Shown one piece after another: positions 719-12,367 of a stretch of DNA of 64,000 bases. Origin of the DNA: Bacteroidales bacterium (lineage in GTDB: Bacteria; Bacteroidota; Bacteroidia; Bacteroidales; Paludibacteraceae); contig SUXC01000007.1 in assembly GCA_015061165.1 (NCBI GenBank), forward strand, positions 1-64,000. Reading direction: 5' to 3'. Below the pieces are notes generated by a model, which was given only the letters and a program-made list of their open reading frames with translations, had not been told where the DNA came from and did no database searches. Position 1 is the first letter of the stretch. Each line of letters begins with the position of its first letter. A program made the translations under genes and the position numbers.

Positions 719-749
719 TTGCATTTATGCAAAAAAAGTAGTAACTTTG
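719..749 (+). promoter_or_regulatory. Bacteroidota sigma-70 promoter P1 of the defence operon
   Basis: TTG at 719-721, 20 bases, then TAACTTTG at 742-749. This matches the phylum consensus and points at the gene starting at 960. It is followed 45 bases later by a second, atypical promoter. Confidence 0.65.
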
Positions 750-793
750 CGGGCTAAATAGGGGAAAACGAAAAAAAATAAACTTTTTTTGAG

Positions 794-831
794 ATACTGA
801 CAAGTTTTAGCAGTTTGATATACTACCTTTG
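794..831 (+). promoter_or_regulatory. Atypical promoter P2, shared with the ORF6N gene
   Basis: TACCTTTG at 824-831 is a good -7 box, but the expected TTTG at -33 is missing. Instead there is a 26 bp block (794-819) that recurs exactly at 15840-15865 in front of the ORF6N gene. The shared block may be a binding site for a common regulator; that is inference. Confidence 0.6.
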
Positions 832-959: not shown

Positions 960-2834
960 ATGGAAGTCAATGTCAAAAAAGCGGTGAAGATGTTTTTTTC
1001 TAGTTCTTCATTTGAAATGATTTACTTTGAGGCGATTGCTAATGCATTGGATGCAAACGCTGACGAAGTAAATATAATCATTCGTGGCACAAAAGACAAG
1101 AAGAATCTCATCCAGTTAGAAAATTTATCATTAGAAATCAGTGATAACGGTGTTGGTATAGATAATTCCAGATATGATAAATTCAGCAAACTTTTTAATG
1201 TAGAGTTAGCAGAACAAAGTCATAAGGGGCTTGGACGATTGGTATATCTATGTTATTTTGATAAAGTACAAGTTGATAGTATATTTGGCAATACGAATCG
1301 TCGCTCATTTATATTTTCCGATTCTTTTGAAAAGAAATCTGGTAGCCGTATTGAAACTTGTGAGCCACAAAACAATGGAACCACATTCAAAATGACCCAA
1401 TTTGCAGGGGAGAGATTGCATAGAAACGAGTATATTCAGCCAGCCTATCTCAAAAAGGCTATTCTAGAGTATTTTTATCCTCGTTTATATAAAGAGAAAA
1501 TAAGCGGAAGAGAAATTAGAATAAATATAACATCGATTATAGATGGTGTCACAAAATCAGAGTTAATTCAAACATCTGACATTCCTGACTTTAAAGAATA
1601 TCAGATAAATTATCCTATAGGACTTTTTAATTCTGTAGTCATGTATTATTCTATAAAAGAGGTACCGGTCAGTGAATCGCGTATTATCACGGGTATTGCT
1701 ATAGATGATAGAAACATGCCTATAGATGTAATTGATCCTGAAAATAGACCTGGTGATTATGAAATGATTTTTCTACTCATAGTAAAGTCACATAACATTA
1801 GTATAGTGAACGAATCACGCCAAGCAATAACTCTTTCTAATTCAGATTTGAATGCTATTAAAGTCACATTCCGTGATGCAATAGCTGAGGTTATTAATAC
1901 ATATGCTCCTAAAGTCGTGGCTGTGAATAGGGAAAGTCAAGAATATTTAACTAGAGTTTATCCACATTTACAAGGTTACTTTGATACGAAAGCTATTGGA
2001 TATGCATCTCGTAATGAAGTTCTAAGACGAGCACAGGAAAAGTTTTTTAATGATCAAAAAACTATTCTTGGAGCTACAGAACTAACTGATGAGCAATATC
2101 AAAAGACATTAGATTTGTCTGCTCGTTCTTTAGCTGAGTATATTCTTTTCCGTCAACGAATCATTGAGAAAATGAGGAGTTTGAACAAAGATAACACGGA
2201 ATATGACTTACATAATTTGATTGCACCAAGATTTTCCGAATTCAAAAGTGATAATTTTATCGAAGATGTTTATCGCAATAATGTATGGGTACTTGATGAT
2301 AAATTTATGAGTTACTCTACTGTGTTGAGTGATAAAGAGATGGGGAAAGTAATCTCAGTATTGACCAATGGTGAGACCACTGATGATAAGGACGATGACA
2401 GACCTGACATTACATTATTTTTCTCTGGAGACCCCAATGATGTAGATAAAAAAGTAGATGTAGTAGTCGTTGAATTAAAACGATTAGGTATATCTGCTGA
2501 GCAAAATTCGATTGTGGAATTCCAATTGGATACGCGTACAAGAAGACTAGCAGAATTTTATAACAATAGAATTCAGCGAATGTGGTTCTATGGTATAGTA
2601 GAAATAGATACGCGTTACAAGATGAATTTGATCAATAACGAGTTTACACCATTATACTCAAATGGAACTGTATATTATAAACCTAAAAAATTCTGGCTTG
2701 ATGAAGACAAAACTAAATGTATAATTCAAAATGTATACATCATGGACTTCAAAGCACTTGTGGAAGATGCGAATACACGCAACGAAACTTTCTTAAAAAT
2801 CCTGAAACAGAAATTTGCAGAACAACAAAGTTGA
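960..2834 (+). CDS. GHKL-family ATPase with C-terminal nuclease-like domain
   Basis: A 624-residue protein whose N-terminus carries the Bergerat ATP-binding fold of Hsp90/MutL/gyrase-type proteins. The motifs are EAIANALDA at 24-32 (Mg-binding Asn28), DNGVG at 62-66 and HKGLGR at 88-93. The middle is unassigned. Near the C-terminus, RPD (481-483) followed by a hydrophobic strand and ELK (505-507) fits the D...ExK pattern of PD-(D/E)XK nucleases. The gene is AT-rich, lies behind two promoters and ends 12 bases before hsdM, so it is probably co-transcribed with the type I system. A role as an accessory anti-phage ATPase/nuclease is inferred from domains and context; the ATPase part is near certain, the nuclease part is a motif reading only. 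I do not recognise it as a named defence gene. Confidence 0.8.
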   Translation: MEVNVKKAVKMFFSSSSFEMIYFEAIANALDANADEVNIIIRGTKDKKNLIQLENLSLEISDNGVGIDNSRYDKFSKLFNVELAEQSHKGLGRLVYLCYFDKVQVDSIFGNTNRRSFIFSDSFEKKSGSRIETCEPQNNGTTFKMTQFAGERLHRNEYIQPAYLKKAILEYFYPRLYKEKISGREIRINITSIIDGVTKSELIQTSDIPDFKEYQINYPIGLFNSVVMYYSIKEVPVSESRIITGIAIDDRNMPIDVIDPENRPGDYEMIFLLIVKSHNISIVNESRQAITLSNSDLNAIKVTFRDAIAEVINTYAPKVVAVNRESQEYLTRVYPHLQGYFDTKAIGYASRNEVLRRAQEKFFNDQKTILGATELTDEQYQKTLDLSARSLAEYILFRQRIIEKMRSLNKDNTEYDLHNLIAPRFSEFKSDNFIEDVYRNNVWVLDDKFMSYSTVLSDKEMGKVISVLTNGETTDDKDDDRPDITLFFSGDPNDVDKKVDVVVVELKRLGISAEQNSIVEFQLDTRTRRLAEFYNNRIQRMWFYGIVEIDTRYKMNLINNEFTPLYSNGTVYYKPKKFWLDEDKTKCIIQNVYIMDFKALVEDANTRNETFLKILKQKFAEQQS

Positions 2835-2846
2835 TAATATAATCAT

Positions 2847-5417
2847 ATGAATAAACAACAACTCGCAGCACGCATTTGGGCATCTGCCAATAAGATGCGT
2901 TCAAAGATTGAAGCAAGTGAATACAAAGACTACATCCTTGGCTTTATCTTCTATAAATACCTTTCTGATAAAGAGGAGCAATTCATGCTATCTGAAGGAG
3001 GAATGAAGCCTGAGGAACTGCTATATATCCAAGAGCAAGACCAAGAGATCGTACAATATTGTCAAACCAATATCGGCTATTTTATTGCATACGACAATTT
3101 GTTTTCTACATGGCTCAATATGGGCAGCGATTTTAGCGTGCAAAATGTTACCATGGCTTTGAGTGCATTTGAGCGCCTAATCAATGAGAACTACAAGAAG
3201 TTGTTTGAGGGTATCTTCTCGTCGCTTAGCGTGGGATTGAGCAAGTTGGGTTCTACGGCTGCACAACAGTCCAAAGCTATCTTGGATCTGTTAGCACTCA
3301 TCAAGGATATTCCTACCGATGGTCGTCAGGGATATGACATCTTGGGCTTTATCTACGAGTATCTGATTAGCCAATTTGCTGCTAATGCAGGCAAGAAAGC
3401 AGGCGAGTTCTATACTCCCCACGAGGTCAGCGTGCTGATGTCAGAGATTGTGGCTGGTCACTTGAAGAACCGCAAGAACATATCTATCTATGACCCTACG
3501 AGTGGCTCGGGTTCGCTCTTGCTGAATATTGGTCAAGCAGTCAGCAAACACACCAACGATAAGGATAATATCCGCTACTATGCGCAAGAGTTGAAGTCTG
3601 CCACATACAACCTTACTCGTATGAACCTCGTGATGCGTGGTATCAAACCAGGTAATATAGATGTGCGCAATGCAGATACCTTGGAGGAAGACTGGCCTCG
3701 TGACGAACGCACCTCTGCTCCTACGCTGTACTTGGATGCAGTCGTGAGCAATCCTCCATACTCGCAACCTTGGAATCCAAATGGCAAGGACCTTGATCCT
3801 CGCTATCGTTATGGTGTGGCTCCAAAGGGAAAAGCGGACTATGCGTTCTTGCTGCATGACTTGTACCACCTCAAACCAGATGGCATCATGACTATCGTAT
3901 TGCCTCATGGCGTATTGTTCCGTGGTGATGCTGCCAAAGATGAAGCAGAAGGTGTTATCCGCAAGAATCTGATAGAGAATAATCACCTTGACGCTGTGAT
4001 TGGTCTGCCTGCGGATATTTTCTTTGGAACGGGTATTGCTACTATTATCCTTGTGCTTTGTCAAAAGCGTGACCGTGATGATGTACTCTTTATCGATGCA
4101 AGCAAAGGTTTTATCAAATCGGGCAAGAAGAACAAACTTCGTGCTTCCGATATTCGTCGTATAGTAGATGCTTATGAGGAAAGATTGGATATTGATAAAT
4201 TCTCTCGCCGTGTTTCTCGTGAGGAGATTCGTGAGAATGGATATAACCTGAATATCCCTCGTTATGTAGATTCCAGCGATGCTGCTGAGACATGGGATCT
4301 ATATGCTACGATGTATGGCGCTATACCTAATCGTGAGATAGACAGTTTGCCTTATTGGTCATATCTGCCTACCTTGCGCAACTCTCTCTTTGAACCTATC
4401 AACGATACCCATTGCCGTCCTCGATTGGAAAATGGCACTCGCACGCTTATTGAAACAGACCAAAGCTATCATCAGCTCACGCAAGCGTATGACCAAACGA
4501 TGAGTGATTTGGTGCAATTCTTAGATAAAGAACTGCTTCAGTCTATCCAGACGGTTCCAGTCAATAGTGAGGAGGAAGTTATCTCTGAGGAGCTGTTCAG
4601 TCGTTTAGGCAAGCATCCAATCTTCAATCCTTACGACGTATATCAATTGTTGGATGATTCTTGGCAAGTGATTTCGGCAGACCTGGAGGTGTTGCAGAGT
4701 GAAGGATGGGACAAGGTGCGTGAGGTAGAGCCAAACATGGTGCTCAAGAAGAAGAAAGACAAAGACTCGGGTGTAGAAACCGAAATAGAGATACAAGAGG
4801 GATGGAAAGGTCGTATCATGCCGTTTGCATTAGTTCAGGAGAATTTCCTTGCAGATGAGTTATGCGAGATTCAGACAGCAGAGATAGAAGCTAGCGATTG
4901 CGCTTCTGATATTGAGGATATGATTCGTGAACTTAGTGATGAGAATCGTGAGAAATATATCGAGGAAGAAGAAGAGAAGCTCAAAACAAAGGAGCTGGCT
5001 GCTGCTGTAAAAGCGATGAAGAAAGACCCAGAGTTGAGAGAGGAAGAACTTATTGCTCTGCAAGGTAAATTAGACCAAGAGAAGGAACTAAAGAAACGTG
5101 TTAAGAAACTGCGTGATGAATTGGAGCAAAAGACACATGCTTGTATCGAATGTTTGACTGATGAGGATGCTTACAAATTGCTTGGTCAAAAATGGATTAT
5201 GCCATTGTGCAAGAAGATTTTCGCTTTGCCTGCTGAATTGTTAGATGCAATTGAAAGAGATGTTACTAAACTCACCAAGCGTTATGCTGACACATTGTTG
5301 AGCGTAGGAACAGAGATTGAAAAAGCAGAAAAAGAGTTAGCTGCAATGTTGGGTGAACTTACTGGCGGAGAGGCGGATATGCAAGCTATTCAAGAACTTC
5401 AAAAACTACTGATGTAA
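2847..5417 (+). CDS. hsdM: Type I restriction-modification DNA methyltransferase subunit
   Basis: N6-adenine methyltransferase subunit that, with HsdS, modifies the recognition sequence and, with HsdR, completes the restriction complex. It has the helical HsdM N-terminal domain (about 1-150). The SAM-binding motif DPTSGSGS is at 216-223, followed by the catalytic NPPY at 302-305. At 856 residues it is far longer than the roughly 530 of classical HsdM. The extra part, from about 480 on, ends in a lysine/glutamate-rich coiled coil (about 680-770) and another helical segment, perhaps for subunit contacts. Its TAA overlaps the ATG of hsdS by one base (5417), indicating translational coupling. Confidence 0.95.
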   Translation: MNKQQLAARIWASANKMRSKIEASEYKDYILGFIFYKYLSDKEEQFMLSEGGMKPEELLYIQEQDQEIVQYCQTNIGYFIAYDNLFSTWLNMGSDFSVQNVTMALSAFERLINENYKKLFEGIFSSLSVGLSKLGSTAAQQSKAILDLLALIKDIPTDGRQGYDILGFIYEYLISQFAANAGKKAGEFYTPHEVSVLMSEIVAGHLKNRKNISIYDPTSGSGSLLLNIGQAVSKHTNDKDNIRYYAQELKSATYNLTRMNLVMRGIKPGNIDVRNADTLEEDWPRDERTSAPTLYLDAVVSNPPYSQPWNPNGKDLDPRYRYGVAPKGKADYAFLLHDLYHLKPDGIMTIVLPHGVLFRGDAAKDEAEGVIRKNLIENNHLDAVIGLPADIFFGTGIATIILVLCQKRDRDDVLFIDASKGFIKSGKKNKLRASDIRRIVDAYEERLDIDKFSRRVSREEIRENGYNLNIPRYVDSSDAAETWDLYATMYGAIPNREIDSLPYWSYLPTLRNSLFEPINDTHCRPRLENGTRTLIETDQSYHQLTQAYDQTMSDLVQFLDKELLQSIQTVPVNSEEEVISEELFSRLGKHPIFNPYDVYQLLDDSWQVISADLEVLQSEGWDKVREVEPNMVLKKKKDKDSGVETEIEIQEGWKGRIMPFALVQENFLADELCEIQTAEIEASDCASDIEDMIRELSDENREKYIEEEEEKLKTKELAAAVKAMKKDPELREEELIALQGKLDQEKELKKRVKKLRDELEQKTHACIECLTDEDAYKLLGQKWIMPLCKKIFALPAELLDAIERDVTKLTKRYADTLLSVGTEIEKAEKELAAMLGELTGGEADMQAIQELQKLLM

Positions 5418-6631
5418 TGGCAAATAAACCGAACATACGATTCAAAGGTTTTACTGAAGAGTGGAGGAAGTCGCCGTTAAGCGATTATCTTGTTGTGTCA
5501 TCTGAACGGAATATTAACAACCAATACACAGCAGAAGATGTACAATCCGTTTCTGGCGAATATGGTGTTGTTAATCAAATTGAATTTCAAGGACGTTCAT
5601 TTGCAGGTGCTTCTTTATTAGGTTATCGTGTAATTCATCATGGGGAAATAGCATATACCAAATCTCCTCTGAAGCAAAGTCCTTATGGTATTATTAAGGC
5701 AAATAAAATAGAAACTGGAATAGTATCTTCTTTGTATGGAGTTTATAAAGTCAAAAACGGATATGCCAACTTCATACAAGATTACTTTGATTTATTATCA
5801 AGGTTAAATGGATATCTGCGTCCATTAGTAAACAAAGGTGCTAAGAATACTTTGCTTATTACAGATGATGGTGCTATCTCGGGTGATGTAATTTTCCCTA
5901 ATGAAGCAGAACAAAAGGAGGTTTCAAAAATTATAGAATCCATCTCAGCATCTATCACTCAACGTGAAAAGGAGTTGGAGAAGTTGAAGAATATCAAGCG
6001 AGCGTTGTTAGAAAAACTTTTCCCTCAAAACGGCTCAAAAGTACCTGCCCTAAGATTTAAAGAGTTTGCAGAGGAGTGGGAGGATAATGTTTTAGAAGAT
6101 GTCTATTATAGATGTATTGAAAAAAATGACCTTTCTTTTGGGCCAGATAAAATAATTTCAGTTGCTAATATGTTTTATCGATCTGAGGTATCAAATTCTT
6201 CGGATGATTATATGAAGACATATAATATCATGCGTTTAGGAGATATAGCTTATGAGGGTAATAAAAGTATTAATTATGCGTATGGTAGATGGGTTGAAAA
6301 TGATATAGGTGATGGCATAGTTTCGCATGTATTTGAAGTATTACGACCTAAATGTGTATATGACCTTTTATATTGGAAATATGCCATTAATAATGAATAT
6401 ATTATGCGCAAATTGTTGCTAAGAAGCACAAAGAAAGCAACTATGATGACAAATGTTGTTGTTGCAGATTTTCTCAGACAAAAGATCCTGATTCCAACAA
6501 TTTATGAACAAAATAAAATAGGTAAACTTTTAGCTAAATTTGATCATCTCCTATCTTTTCGTGAGAAGCAATTAACCTTATTGAAACACACCAAACAGGC
6601 GCTTTTGGAGCAAATGTTTGTAAATGAATAA
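5417..6631 (+). CDS. hsdS: Type I restriction-modification specificity subunit
   Basis: This 404-residue protein determines which DNA sequence the HsdM/HsdR complex recognises. It has the usual two-fold layout. Each half opens with a similar stretch (RFKGFTEEW near residue 9, RFKEFAEEW near 213), then has a target recognition domain, and closes with a conserved long helix (ASITQREKELEKLKNIK near 176-192; a similar helix at the C-terminus). Both halves are full size and no frameshift is seen, so the subunit appears intact. No inverted second hsdS fragment is present in the window, so there is no sign of specificity switching by inversion. It follows hsdM with a one-base overlap, and hsdR starts three bases after its stop. 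Confidence 0.94.
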   Translation: MANKPNIRFKGFTEEWRKSPLSDYLVVSSERNINNQYTAEDVQSVSGEYGVVNQIEFQGRSFAGASLLGYRVIHHGEIAYTKSPLKQSPYGIIKANKIETGIVSSLYGVYKVKNGYANFIQDYFDLLSRLNGYLRPLVNKGAKNTLLITDDGAISGDVIFPNEAEQKEVSKIIESISASITQREKELEKLKNIKRALLEKLFPQNGSKVPALRFKEFAEEWEDNVLEDVYYRCIEKNDLSFGPDKIISVANMFYRSEVSNSSDDYMKTYNIMRLGDIAYEGNKSINYAYGRWVENDIGDGIVSHVFEVLRPKCVYDLLYWKYAINNEYIMRKLLLRSTKKATMMTNVVVADFLRQKILIPTIYEQNKIGKLLAKFDHLLSFREKQLTLLKHTKQALLEQMFVNE

Positions 6632-6634
6632 AGC

Positions 6635-9600
6635 ATGTACGATAGCGAACCGAAATTTGAACACGACTTGGTTGCCTTTATGACGACCAAAGGATGGAGC
6701 GACAAGGTGCTGAAAAACTACACCGAGCAACAGTTAATTGACAACTGGGCAAGTATCCTATACCAAAACAATTCGGGTATTGACCAACTCAACGGTTGTC
6801 CGCTCACATCTACCGAGATGCAGCAAATCATCAATCAGGTGAACGAACTGCATACGCCTGTTGCGTTAAATGGCCTTATCAATGGCAAGACTGTCAATAT
6901 CGTTCGAGACAATCCTAACGACAAACTGCATTTGGGACAGATGATCAGTCTCTCCATCTACGACCGCAATCAGATCGCTTCAGGCAGTAGTGTGTATCAG
7001 ATAGCCGAACAACCACAATTCCCCACAGTACACCCATTAGCCAGCGACAGACGAGGAGACTTGATGTTGCTTATTAATGGTATGCCAGTCTTCCATATCG
7101 AGTTAAAGAAAACGGGTGTGGATGTATCACAAGCCGTATATCAAATTCGCAAATACTACAAAGAAGGCATCTTCTCACAAGGACTATTCTCGCTTGTACA
7201 AGTCTTTGTGGCAATGAATCCAGAGGAGACTGTTTATTTTGCTAACCCTGGCAGTTACGATGCATTCTCTCCACAGTTTCAGTTTCATTGGGCAGACTTC
7301 AACAACGAGCCTATCAACGATTGGAAGAGTGTAGCCACCCATCTCCTATCCATACCTATGGCTCATCAGATGATAGGATTCTATACCGTTCCTGACAAAT
7401 TGGCGGGCAACCTAAAGGTAATGCGCAGTTATCAATACTATGCAGCTTCTGCTATTGCAGACCGTGTAGCAACCTGTCGTTGGGATGAGCATGACCTGTT
7501 TGGTGGTTTTATATGGCATACTACAGGTTCTGGAAAGACGATGACTTCTTTCAAATCAGCTCAGTTGATAGCGGATTCTGGAAAGGCAGACAAAGTGGTA
7601 TTCCTAATGGACCGCATAGAATTGGGTACTCAAACCGCATTGGAGTATCGTGGATTCAAGACGGATTTGGAAGATGTACAGGAAACTGAGGATACGGCGG
7701 ATTTGATAGGCAAATTGGATAGTCCTGATGCACAAGATCGATTGATAGTTACTTCTATTCAGAAGATGAGCCGTATTGTGCCTGCTCACAATAATCGCCA
7801 TCAGATCAACCGAATCAACCAGAAGCGCCTTGTGATCATCATAGACGAGTGTCATCGCGATGTGTTTGGTGATATGCTGAGTACCATTCGTGCTACCTTT
7901 ACCCGTGCTATCTTCTTTGGATTTACTGGTACACCTATTCACGAGGAAAACAAAAAAATGATGCTCACTACCGCCGCTATTTTTGGTAATGAACTCCATC
8001 GTTATAGCATAGCAGACGGTATCCGTGATGAAAATGTGCTGAAGTTTGACCCAGTCATGAAAGAGGCTTATTCAGACATAGTTATCAGAAACGAAGTAGC
8101 TCTCCGTCGTGCTTGTGCTACAACTGAGAAAGAGGCGCTGGAAGACGAAAAGAAAAGAGAGGTCTATATGCATTATTTGCATCATGTGCCTATGGCTGGA
8201 GAAACGCTTCACGACGAGTGTATCGAGAATTATATTCCAGAGGAGCAATATAGAAGAGGCGACTATCGTCGTGCCGTAGTGAATGATATTATCAAGTACA
8301 ATACTATCTATAGTATGGGGCGCAAGTATCATGCTATATTTGCCACGTCCTCTATCCCAGAGGCATTTGAGTATTATGTGTTGCTACGGACTTTTGACTC
8401 AAGTCTAAAAATAACCTGCCTTGTAGATCCTTCTATTGACAATGATGGTAGAGGAGAAATCAAAGAGGAACTGCTGTTGAAGATTTTGGAAGATTACAAT
8501 GCGCAGTACAATACACATTTCACGATGCCTAAGTATGCTTCTTTCAAAAAAGATGTCGCACTCCGTTTGGCACACAAAGATTTGTACAAGGGCATAGAGA
8601 ACCACCCAGAACAATGTTTGGACATTCTGATTGTAGTCAATCAAATGCTGACAGGATATGATTCGAAATGGGTTAATACGCTATATCTTGACAAAATATT
8701 ATACAACGAGAACCTTATCCAAGCTTTCTCTCGAACCAATCGTCTTAACGGTCCTGAGAAACCACACGGCACTATTTGCTACTATCGTCGTCCACACACG
8801 ATGAAAGCGAATATTGAGCGAGCTATTCGCCTCTATTCAGGCGACAAACCGCTGGGTATCATGGCGGAACAACTAAGTATGCACATAGCTGCTATCAATG
8901 CCGCATACGCGCAAATACAACATCTGTTCCAAGTGTCGGGCGTAGAGGATTTCTCCAAACTGCCAGAGGACAAGGATATACAAGGACAATTTGCAAAACT
9001 ATTCAAAGAGTTGAACCGCCATCTCAATGCGGCTAAAGTACAGGGCTTTTCATGGGATAAACAGGAGATCTCAACACCTGAGGTGAAACTGCTGAACAAT
9101 GATAGTTGTGTAGAAGACGAATGTTGCGAAATGCTATTGGCTATTGATGAGACTTCGTATGGCGCTTTGCTCCAACGTTATAAAGAGATATATCACGTTC
9201 CAAAGGAAAAACCTACAGAGGAAATCACATTTGAGATTGATCCATATATCATCTCTATCAACACAGGTGCGATAGATACGGAATATATGAATGCACGATT
9301 CCGCAAGTATATGCGCACACTCACCAATTATGCGACAGACGAGGAGAAGACTTCTGCTTTGGATGAATTGCATCGTTCGTTCTCCACATTGACACAGGAC
9401 GAACAAGGGTTTGCAGAATTGTTCTTGCATGATGTCCAACGCGGTACGGTGCAAATAGATGAGGATAAGACCTTGCGCGATTATATTACAGAATATATGA
9501 CACGGGCGAAGAATGACCGTATTCATCGTTTTGCAGAAGCATTGGATATGAATGAAGATCTGTTGCGCGAGATAATGAACAACTATATGCCAGGTGATAT

Positions 9601-9766
9601 TATCCCTCCTGGCCCATTTGAACAACTGATGCTGAGTGTGGATAAGCAGAAAGCAAAATCATGGTTGGAAGAGCGCGAAGGAGTGACTATACAATCCTTC
9701 CGCGTGAACATGCGCATTGACCGTATCTTGCGTGATTTTATCGAGCACGGCGGATTTGAAGTATAA
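6635..9766 (+). CDS. hsdR: Type I restriction endonuclease/translocase subunit
   Basis: ATP-driven DNA translocase and nuclease of the type I complex, 1043 residues, normal for the family. The N-terminal PD-(D/E)XK nuclease shows Asp142 (RRGD) and Glu156-Leu-Lys158. The superfamily 2 helicase follows, with Walker A (GSGKT, about 298-302), the DECH box (404-407) and a FTGTP motif III. The C-terminal helical part binds HsdM in characterised relatives. All catalytic residues looked for are present, so the enzyme should be active. The start is three bases after the hsdS stop, and the next gene follows after 26 bases on the same strand. Confidence 0.95.
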   Translation: MYDSEPKFEHDLVAFMTTKGWSDKVLKNYTEQQLIDNWASILYQNNSGIDQLNGCPLTSTEMQQIINQVNELHTPVALNGLINGKTVNIVRDNPNDKLHLGQMISLSIYDRNQIASGSSVYQIAEQPQFPTVHPLASDRRGDLMLLINGMPVFHIELKKTGVDVSQAVYQIRKYYKEGIFSQGLFSLVQVFVAMNPEETVYFANPGSYDAFSPQFQFHWADFNNEPINDWKSVATHLLSIPMAHQMIGFYTVPDKLAGNLKVMRSYQYYAASAIADRVATCRWDEHDLFGGFIWHTTGSGKTMTSFKSAQLIADSGKADKVVFLMDRIELGTQTALEYRGFKTDLEDVQETEDTADLIGKLDSPDAQDRLIVTSIQKMSRIVPAHNNRHQINRINQKRLVIIIDECHRDVFGDMLSTIRATFTRAIFFGFTGTPIHEENKKMMLTTAAIFGNELHRYSIADGIRDENVLKFDPVMKEAYSDIVIRNEVALRRACATTEKEALEDEKKREVYMHYLHHVPMAGETLHDECIENYIPEEQYRRGDYRRAVVNDIIKYNTIYSMGRKYHAIFATSSIPEAFEYYVLLRTFDSSLKITCLVDPSIDNDGRGEIKEELLLKILEDYNAQYNTHFTMPKYASFKKDVALRLAHKDLYKGIENHPEQCLDILIVVNQMLTGYDSKWVNTLYLDKILYNENLIQAFSRTNRLNGPEKPHGTICYYRRPHTMKANIERAIRLYSGDKPLGIMAEQLSMHIAAINAAYAQIQHLFQVSGVEDFSKLPEDKDIQGQFAKLFKELNRHLNAAKVQGFSWDKQEISTPEVKLLNNDSCVEDECCEMLLAIDETSYGALLQRYKEIYHVPKEKPTEEITFEIDPYIISINTGAIDTEYMNARFRKYMRTLTNYATDEEKTSALDELHRSFSTLTQDEQGFAELFLHDVQRGTVQIDEDKTLRDYITEYMTRAKNDRIHRFAEALDMNEDLLREIMNNYMPGDIIPPGPFEQLMLSVDKQKAKSWLEEREGVTIQSFRVNMRIDRILRDFIEHGGFEV

Positions 9767-9792
9767 AAATAAACCCAAATATTAGTATAACT

Positions 9793-10437
9793 ATGAAAAA
9801 GAACATTAGTATTATCCTATCAATACTGGCGCTTGCAATAGCATCAGTATTGGCTGTATTATTAGTTTGTAGAAATGTTACACTATCATCCATTTCGCTT
9901 GATACCTTTGTTGGTGTTATGGTGGCAATGATAGGTATATTGGTCACTTTCGCTGTCGGTTGGCAGATTATCAATGCGTTGGAAATCAAAGGCAAATTGG
10001 CTGAAATAGAAAAACTGAAAGCAGACATCAATGACCAACGCGAACAGATGCACGAATTGGCAGAAAGTACCAAACATGATTCGATGCTTGTCCGTGCACA
10101 AGCCTTTTATCGAGATGGAGATTTTATCAACGCCACTATCTGCTCGATGGACTCTTTGTTGCATTGCCTTCCTCTGAAAGTTCCAAGCAATATCCATTTG
10201 GTATTGCATACAACCGCTAACTTTATGATGGGTATTAACAAGTTTGCAACAGTAGAAGAATACAATAAGATAGTAGAATTAGATGCTGCCATTCGCAAAG
10301 CCAAAAACTATACATTTATCAAACCGACATATGAGCAGATTTGGAAAGAGTTTGTGAAGGAGAAAAATCTATATTTTCAAAAAGCCGTGAAAGAATCAAA
10401 AGAAGCCACCACAGACACATCAAAATCTACCAAATGA
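9793..10437 (+). CDS. Two-helix membrane protein with coiled coil, unknown function
   Basis: A 214-residue protein I do not recognise. Two hydrophobic segments (about 5-29 and 37-60) place the N-terminus in the membrane. A charged, likely coiled-coil stretch follows (about 65-95), then a helical soluble domain with TPR-like spacing (about 95-200). The C-terminus is lysine/serine/threonine-rich. It begins 26 bases after hsdR without a visible promoter or terminator, so it is probably read through from the restriction operon. A membrane-anchored accessory role in defence is only a contextual guess. Confidence 0.75.
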   Translation: MKKNISIILSILALAIASVLAVLLVCRNVTLSSISLDTFVGVMVAMIGILVTFAVGWQIINALEIKGKLAEIEKLKADINDQREQMHELAESTKHDSMLVRAQAFYRDGDFINATICSMDSLLHCLPLKVPSNIHLVLHTTANFMMGINKFATVEEYNKIVELDAAIRKAKNYTFIKPTYEQIWKEFVKEKNLYFQKAVKESKEATTDTSKSTK

Positions 10438-10585
10438 GCGTAGATGAAAATGCGTTTAGACTAAAAGCGGAAGAAATAAAATAATATGTCTATCTTTCTT
10501 AAAATATTTAATGTAGTCATAAATTCACATTTTATAAATCTTTTCGTTGATTAAAAACAAAATTAGACACCATAAAAACAATACT

Positions 10586-12367
10586 ATGTCACAAACTAAA
10601 GATCAATACCAATTTGATTCACTTACAGTAGAGAAGTGTTTTGAGTCATTCTATGTTGTACCAGACTATCAGCGCGAATACGTATGGAAGGCGGAAAATC
10701 ATGTAACAAAACTCCTTCAAGATATATACGATGCATTTACAAATGATAGTTCTAAAGAATATTTTCTAGGAACGACAGTCGTTATTGAAGATAAAGGTAT
10801 ATATGAACTTATTGATGGTCAACAGCGCACAACGACTTTATACCTAATACTATGTGCTTTTAAAGAAATTTACAAACTGCATGGACTTTCTACACAGGTG
10901 TTAGATAGAAAGATAGCGGACATTATGTTAGACGAACAAGGTAATGAAGTACACCAATATCGTTTAGTATTGCAGTATGAGAATACTACCGATTACCTTC
11001 AGAAAATAGTAAAAAACGAAATAGGTCCTGAAGAAAATCTCACAAATAGCAATTTCCGCCTTTTTGAAGCTTACGAAACTGCTAAAACATTTATTAACGA
11101 TCAAACACATAACGACGTTAATGAACTAAAAAGTTTCTTTATGTACTTCTTTAAGAAACTGAAATTTATACAAATCCAGGCACCCTATATCAGCGAAGCA
11201 CTCAAGATATTTGAAACCATCAATGCTAGAGGAGCAGGATTAAACTCTGTTGACTTGCTCAAGAATCTTATTTTTAGACAAGTAAAGAGAGAAGAGTTCG
11301 ATAAACTAAAATCCAAGTGGAAAGAGTTTATTGCTATACTCGAAGATGCAGATGAAAAACCTCTTCGATTTCTAAGATATTTCATTGTGTCTAACTATCC
11401 TAGTTTGCATAACAACCCAACAAAACAGGAAAACACAATGCGAGAAGACGATATCTATAACTGGATATCACAAAATGCTGATAAATGTAAATATAATGAA
11501 AATCCATTCGCATTTATAGAACTACTAACTGAAAACGCAAAATGTTATGTCAACTTCACAAATGGAAGAGATGCACAAGGCAATAATAACCAACATTTGG
11601 TAAATATAATATATCTCGCAGGATCTGCATTTAGGCAACATATTATATTATTGTTGACTGCACGCAAGTTCCCTCAGGACATGTTTAATTATCTGGTAAA
11701 AAATCTGGAAACATATCTCTTCTATTTCTTATTTACAAAAGAGCAAGCCAAAATTTATGAGAAACAATTCGGTCTCTGGAATACATATTTGAAAGATGTA
11801 ACTAATATGGAGCAACTAACAGATTTTGTGCAAAATCGAATTAAACCTGAAATAGACAAGAAAGAAACCGAATTCAAAGCGCGGTTCTATAGTTTTAGTG
11901 AGTGCGATTTGCAACTATATAGGGTTCGCTATATACTTGCTAAATTATCTATGTATATTGATATGATGCATAATGGTAGCCAAATAACGCCTGATATTAG
12001 TAAGTATGCTAAGTATGAAATAGAACATATTTTACCAAAGACACCAACACCTCAAATACTTGCAACATTGCCAGAAGATGTTCAATATAGTCAACTGAAA
12101 TCCATGTTGGGTAATCTTACATTACTTGAACAACCCCTTAATGGTTCTATCCACAACAATCTTTTTGAAGAAAAGAAACCAGCATTTGCAAGCAGTAATT
12201 TGTATCTAACTCGCTCACTTGTCAAATTAGACAATGTCGGGGTAAATAATGCCGTCACTAGAACCAATCAATTATTACTCGAATTCGACCATTGGGATGA
12301 TAAAACTATTGCAGAACGACAAGAAATGCTTTACAAAATTGCTTTAAAAATCTGGAAGATTTCCTAA
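10586..12367 (+). CDS. DUF262/DUF1524 protein, GmrSD-like type IV restriction family
   Basis: Related to GmrSD-type modification-dependent restriction enzymes. The N-terminal DUF262 domain holds the signature DGQQR (77-81), part of a nucleotide-handling site in this family. The C-terminal DUF1524 domain holds the HNH-like YEIEHILPK (about 478-486) followed by LGNLTLLE. About 593 residues from the ATG at 10586; a TTG at 10547 in the same frame would add 13 residues with no family similarity that I can see, so I prefer the ATG. The gene is very AT-rich. It likely recognises modified or otherwise foreign DNA, but its target cannot be read from the sequence. It is separated from the upstream gene by about 150 bases and probably has its own promoter. 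Confidence 0.88.
   Translation: MSQTKDQYQFDSLTVEKCFESFYVVPDYQREYVWKAENHVTKLLQDIYDAFTNDSSKEYFLGTTVVIEDKGIYELIDGQQRTTTLYLILCAFKEIYKLHGLSTQVLDRKIADIMLDEQGNEVHQYRLVLQYENTTDYLQKIVKNEIGPEENLTNSNFRLFEAYETAKTFINDQTHNDVNELKSFFMYFFKKLKFIQIQAPYISEALKIFETINARGAGLNSVDLLKNLIFRQVKREEFDKLKSKWKEFIAILEDADEKPLRFLRYFIVSNYPSLHNNPTKQENTMREDDIYNWISQNADKCKYNENPFAFIELLTENAKCYVNFTNGRDAQGNNNQHLVNIIYLAGSAFRQHIILLLTARKFPQDMFNYLVKNLETYLFYFLFTKEQAKIYEKQFGLWNTYLKDVTNMEQLTDFVQNRIKPEIDKKETEFKARFYSFSECDLQLYRVRYILAKLSMYIDMMHNGSQITPDISKYAKYEIEHILPKTPTPQILATLPEDVQYSQLKSMLGNLTLLEQPLNGSIHNNLFEEKKPAFASSNLYLTRSLVKLDNVGVNNAVTRTNQLLLEFDHWDDKTIAERQEMLYKIALKIWKIS

Follow-up and report, generated by a model that had tools for sequence, protein, structure and literature searches.

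A Bacteroidales bacterium of the Paludibacteraceae (GenBank assembly GCA_015061165.1, contig SUXC01000007.1) carries, as the first gene of a type I restriction (hsd) operon, one whose 624-residue product is probably a paraMORC3-type, Shedu-like, ATP-gated anti-phage nuclease that serves as a self-contained second layer of defence within the operon. The gene lies at 960-2834 (+) of the window, the stretch of 64,000 nucleotides that was analysed, and it encodes a GHKL ATPase with an S5 domain, a helical middle and a Shedu-like PD-(D/E)XK nuclease. Established here are its domains, invariant catalytic residues and predicted folds, the arrangement of the operon, the homology to VcSduA-like proteins, and the repeated recruitment of such genes to hsd operons.

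The frame at 960-2834 starts with ATG and runs for 624 codons without an internal stop, and 12 bp separate its end at 2834 from hsdM, which begins at 2847; the position 12 bases ahead of hsdM, first noted in a sequence-only reading of this DNA, was confirmed. The type I set downstream is complete, with all three genes intact, contiguous and on the + strand: hsdM (2847-5417; methyltransferase, 856 aa; TIGR00497, E = 1e-97), hsdS (5417-6631; specificity subunit, 404 aa, with the expected domains) and hsdR (6635-9766; restriction subunit, 1043 aa; TIGR00348, E = 6e-96). The nuclease gene is very probably co-transcribed with hsdM-hsdS-hsdR. An exact Bacteroidetes-type motif, TTGCAT...TAACTTTG, at 719-750 (+) is the likely operon promoter; its class, TTTG-N17-22-TANNTTTG, was counted 15 times in the window where 2 would be expected, and a similar element is found upstream of the hsd operons in L102 and L103. 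The gene had been credited with two promoters of its own, and this claim stands in part, since the second possible -7 element, TACCTTTG at 824-831 (+), read from the sequence, has no clear -33 box. A tandem 92-bp repeat with copies 89% identical occupies 338-521, and the region upstream of the operon consists of dispersed intergenic repeats, because the 400 bp around the tandem repeat (360-760) have 48 partial matches across the genome. A 214-aa TM-like protein is encoded 3' of hsdR (9793-10437), and its homologue (27%) in another genome of the same genus (L112, 5815-6498) lies directly upstream of a VcSduA-like gene. Also 3' of the hsd operon is a GmrSD-type gene (10547-12367; DUF262 + GmrSD_C), so 960-12367 forms a small defence island.

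One scan of species genomes returned 80 loci, distributed over Bacteroidota, Pseudomonadota, Lentisphaerota, Verrucomicrobiota, Acidobacteriota, Spirochaetota and other phyla. The taxonomic family of the window supplied two more relatives, and removal of duplicates and broken copies left an alignment (A2) of 77 full-length proteins. Distribution within the taxonomic family is patchy, with a full-length relative in the window and in two other genomes of 300; no homologues were found in phage records, and plasmids carry distant homologues only. The GHKL residues E24, N28, D62, G64, G66, G90, G92 and R93 are invariant (77/77) and D31 (76/77) and N63 (75/77) nearly so, while R251 in the S5 region is invariant across the 77-member family. 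In the C-terminal part E414, H418, N441, W443, L445, D446, D483, E505, K507, Q522 and R526 are likewise present in every member; of these, E414, D483 and E505-x-K507 make up the E-D-ExK signature of the restriction endonuclease fold. Chance motifs are ruled out, because the four residues named in the sequence-only reading (N28, D483, E505 and K507), together with E24, D62, G64, G66, E414 and Q522, are conserved without exception in homologues from many phyla. HATPase_c (PF02518) matched the first 98 residues (E = 5e-6, above the gathering score), and a profile of the 77 homologues matched MutL structures in the PDB (E = 4e-5). The C-terminal 224 aa had no match in Pfam, NCBIfam, PADLOC or PDB sequence searches, and the whole protein had none in PADLOC and, as a single sequence, none in the PDB.

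The AlphaFold2 model built on A2 has a mean pLDDT of 88.6. Residues 1-320 (960-1919, +) are assigned to a GHKL + S5 ATPase module by fold match and invariant residues, and in VIA-align they matched Morc3 (Z = 18.9), MORC4 (17.9), MORC2 (17.5), Hsp90 (17.5) and MutL (16.6). A helical middle or arm of residues about 321-409 (1920-2186, +), with helices predicted at 317-333, 351-370 and 377-406, is followed by the PD-(D/E)XK nuclease of residues 414-624 (2199-2831, +), recognised by its fold and by invariant E414, D483, E505, K507 and Q522. Modelled alone, the C-terminal 222 residues reached a pLDDT of 84.3, with D483 and E505/K507 placed on strands and Q522 on the helix that follows. Foldseek gave weak matches to this model, none with E < 0.1; in VIA-align the best of 998 chains was the Bacillus cereus Shedu nuclease 8ti9_B (Z = 9.4, rmsd 3.4, 141 residues aligned), followed by McrC (Z = 7.2), EndoMS (6.4) and FokI (6.3). 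Structure prediction, which had been proposed as a check on the C-terminal part, thus returned a nuclease-like PD-(D/E)XK fold with Shedu ranked first, and the reading of the protein as a GHKL ATPase joined to a PD-(D/E)XK nuclease is borne out by the predicted folds as well as by conservation in the 77 homologues.

A sequence route to Shedu runs through a more distant second clade with the same architecture as the window protein. This clade, A4, comprises L110-L112 from the same taxonomic family and the plasmid proteins L089-L091, and it stands in for VcSduA, the GHKL Shedu (type I-D) of V. cholerae; the catalytic lysine of its first member is K557, the number published for VcSduA. Using hhalign, A2 aligned with this proxy end to end (E = 5e-38, 556 columns), with E24, D483, E505, K507 and Q522 opposite E25, D529, E555, K557 and Q573, respectively, and the nuclease parts alone aligned with E = 2e-16. 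The A4 nuclease in turn matched 22 canonical SduA_C domains (E = 1.2e-6, probability 91%). Direct hhalign of the window-clade nuclease against the same 22 sequences gave no link (probability 1.5%), and Pfam detected no DUF4263/SduA_C domain in the window protein. Because A4 links to both A2 and SduA_C while the direct link fails, the window nuclease is, on its modelled fold and by transitivity via the VcSduA-like group, not by the DUF4263 model, a diverged Shedu-like nuclease. Canonical SduA of B. cereus (8ti9) shares the nuclease fold as the best structural match but is without a GHKL domain, and no direct sequence similarity between it and the window protein was detected. VcSduA likewise combines a GHKL ATPase and a PD-(D/E)XK nuclease in one protein of similar length, but it belongs to the separate clade (for the proxy group, BLAST alignments cover 130-190 N-terminal residues at 25-30% identity) and adjoins GrwAB, whereas the window gene sits in an hsd operon. 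Expressed in E. coli, VcSduA blocks Drexlerviridae, and in its native host it blocks phage X29; E27A and K557A each abolish activity, so both ATPase and nuclease are needed for defence (PMC12137116). Infected cultures survive, the phage being restricted without host death, and the protein protects alone, from one gene inserted in the E. coli chromosome (PMC12137116). A Vibrio fluvialis plasmid (L090, 1-7953) carries in a row hsdR, an AAA ATPase, hsdM, hsdS, a canonical Shedu nuclease and a VcSduA-like GHKL nuclease.

The architecture itself was named paraMORC3 in 2008 by Iyer, Abhiman and Aravind, in whose main text it is predicted to act with restriction systems and is described as an N-terminal GHKL + S5 module with a C-terminal restriction endonuclease-fold nuclease bearing E-D-ExK, common in Bacteroidetes and proteobacteria and found in restriction-modification neighbourhoods or, in some cases, standalone (PMC2292703). 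The window protein has the conserved GHKL motifs, the S5 domain after GHKL and the C-terminal E-D-ExK fold, and its family is sporadically distributed, in restriction-modification neighbourhoods or standalone. The operons named in that main text are those with type III systems, SWI2/SNF2 and other helicases, whereas the window gene is in a type I operon; embedding in type I hsd operons goes unmentioned there, the supplement aside (PMC2292703). None of the 77 family members has the MORC-specific motif GhXhhpXXRhl in its S5 region, so the window protein is a paraMORC, and MORC proper is ruled out. The sequence-only reading named no described type I accessory of this sort, but the kind of protein is a described one: the architecture is that of paraMORC3 as the main text gives it (PMC2292703), and phage tests exist for VcSduA, a GHKL-Shedu protein (PMC12137116).

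Neighbourhoods of the 77 loci were surveyed using the HsdM/S/R profiles of the window and simple gene calls. Seventeen homologues lie in hsd operons and 60 outside them, and 13 of the 17 have an hsd gene on either side. Their positions vary: before hsdM (the window), between hsdM and hsdS (L003, L022, L029, L039), between hsdR and hsdS (L031, L035, L036, L038, L047, L048, L060), between hsdS and hsdR (L024, L053 and, with a wider gap, L059) and after hsdR (L046, L051). Homologues thus do not always precede hsdM, the point that a survey had been suggested to check, and the scatter away from hsdM that was to count against any coupling was found in part, yet 17 of 77 is far above the roughly 0.2 expected by chance, a figure based on 56 hsdM-like matches in 174 Mb (41 of the genomes), rough assumptions and non-independent loci. 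Because of those assumptions the tree gives the safer statement: type I context needs nine changes, eight of them forced by strongly supported branches, hence at least eight gains or losses. The clade of the window gene (n=9) has no other type I member, and its closest relatives (57-58%; L008, L009, L012) follow an AAA + DUF4276 pair. Coupling to type I restriction, as first read from the sequence, therefore holds for this operon but not for most of the family, and the survey and the tree rule out obligate pairing with hsdM. Defence-island clustering is unlikely to be the entire cause of the type I link, because 13 of the 17 lie between hsd genes.

Outside hsd operons, homologues occur with BREX, type II or type III systems or by themselves. 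L073 is a BREX type 3-like operon with BrxC, a Schlafen-AlbA/HATPase protein, the GHKL nuclease, PglXI, BrxH, PglZ and BrxA, and similar loci have PglXI, BrxH or BrxC among the neighbours; a link between Shedu nucleases and BREX was noted earlier (PMC12839542). The Schlafen-AlbA_2 + HATPase_c_4 protein of L073 (8146-10011) lies directly before the GHKL nuclease, between BrxC and PglXI, and L068, L075 and L084 have such a protein at similar positions. L045 has type III context, L049 and L050 adjoin C5-methylases, and L079 adjoins a SNF2 helicase, an Eco57I-type enzyme and an AAA protein. No co-directional neighbour was found at 29 of the 77 loci, some of them cut by contig ends, and these homologues keep all catalytic residues. 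In both clades an AAA_21 ATPase with a DUF4276, DUF4435 or unassigned 202-aa gene adjoins GHKL-nuclease genes (L008, L009, L012; L110, 7672-9733; L111, 5199-7008), and this pair and the nuclease possibly form a recurrent three-gene module. The AAA + DUF4435 pair resembles PARIS, which senses anti-restriction proteins.

Comparison with genomes of the same genus shows how the gene is placed. Seven have an hsdM 77-84% identical to that of the window, and an eighth (L109) has a 48-51% relative. The same hsdM is preceded by a GmrSD-like gene (L103, L104), a GmrSD_N gene and a TM-like protein (L108), a 316-aa gene and a small TM-like protein (L105, L107) or no recognised gene (L102, L106), and the more distant hsdM by a methylase-HATPase protein and a further gene. 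DNA similarity between the window and the sister genomes starts no more than 7 bp ahead of the hsdM ATG, or at the ATG itself. Because the upstream genes differ while similarity starts at this ATG, the head of the hsd operon is a cargo slot with exchangeable defence genes, similar to the rlo/mlo inserts in Campylobacter hsd loci (PMC2610378, PMC5183652). The L109 genes (1979-5496) are an N6-methylase fused to HATPase_c (855 aa) and then a 316-aa gene, a pair that recalls the two-component-like elements of PMC8011034. A gene of about 370-420 aa (MSSEHDIWQPQEPGKAWKGAGLYHITLTIPSREPLLG...) also precedes hsdR in sister genomes, where it follows hsdS or a fused M/S frame (L103, 9646-10824; L105, 6310-7524; L106, 8270-9373; L107, 8634-9890); by eye it is like REP-type tyrosine transposases, and a Pfam search gave no match. 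L104 (7502-10702), L106 (5052-8273) and L107 (5400-8633) have an hsdM frame of about 1070 aa, as if fused with part of hsdS.

As a mechanism for the ATP-gated nuclease, two subunits would bind ATP and their N-terminal GHKL heads would close as a putative dimer, while the S5 domain and helical arms may act as a clamp holding DNA. Closure driven by ATP would position the C-terminal PD-(D/E)XK domains, which would cut invading DNA, presumably that of phages, in a metal-dependent reaction. Expressed with hsdM-hsdS-hsdR, the protein would supply a second, largely autonomous layer beside type I restriction, probably working independently of HsdMSR, and the type I operon would act as its vehicle, with a slot for variable cargo, not as an obligate partner. 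Autonomy is argued from the standalone homologues that keep their catalytic residues, from nearest relatives outside hsd operons and from the varying slot genes. The word may underplay a functional tie of some kind with type I systems, for which the recurrent placement between hsd genes (13/17) argues. A bolder proposal, which we consider tentative and rather doubtful, is that type I, BREX type 3-like, type III and type II modification systems employ the GHKL nucleases of this clade as functional subunits or effectors, with the host methylation mark or the translocating enzyme discriminating self from non-self.

The 13 homologues between hsd genes, and the AAA + DUF4276/DUF4435 pairs adjoining some members, would also suit a PrrC-style guard or back-up effector, kept silent by HsdMSR until a phage anti-restriction protein frees it and the cell or the phage dies. 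PrrC itself is linked to a type Ic enzyme that silences and then releases it, and hsd loci also harbour inserted Rlo/Mlo genes (PMC2610378, PMC5183652). Such inserts share with the window gene a strain-variable accessory defence nuclease in a type I locus, but PrrC and RloC are ABC-ATPase tRNA nucleases whereas the window protein is a GHKL protein and predicted DNA nuclease. PrrC is invariably linked to type Ic, whereas 60 of 77 members of this family are outside hsd operons, and VcSduA restricts without host death (PMC12137116), which makes a guard unlikely. A PrrC-type hsd accessory as such (ABC ATPase, tRNA-nuclease triad) was rejected on the different ATPase class and nuclease and the 17/77 linkage.

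Recurrence with translocating or methylating machines (type I, type III, BREX, helicase/Eco57I-type) favours a processing partner of HsdR, whose clamp would recognise DNA ends, loops or stalled translocation complexes from the type I enzyme and degrade or nick them. DNA-end sensing by Shedu, reportedly the subject of a 2025 Cell paper, to go by its title, points the same way. So does the looping model in the main text of Iyer et al., where DNA processing is proposed for MORC-linked restriction systems (PMC2292703). A processing partner of this kind is nonetheless improbable, as standalone homologues retain all catalytic residues and VcSduA works as a single gene from an E. coli chromosomal insertion (PMC12137116). 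A DNA repair or mismatch-repair-like enzyme related to MutL, without a role in defence, would agree with MutL among the nearest solved relatives by sequence and EndoMS among the nuclease fold matches; the patchy distribution, the defence-operon context and the anti-phage activity of the tested relative, VcSduA, make this very improbable indeed.

With this analysis the GHKL-nuclease defence proteins gain a large clade (77 aligned members, with a nuclease for which there is no Pfam model), whose nuclease is connected with Shedu by its fold and by way of an intermediate family. If the clade's members do act as subunits or effectors, their repeated, independent insertion between hsd genes would point to a shared interface, and ATP-gated accessory nucleases of type I systems would be a class of their own. 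The hsd operons offer a fixed position to defence genes that can be exchanged, and one type of nuclease entered type I operons many times, so that cooperation between passenger and restriction enzyme can be tested in a single operon.
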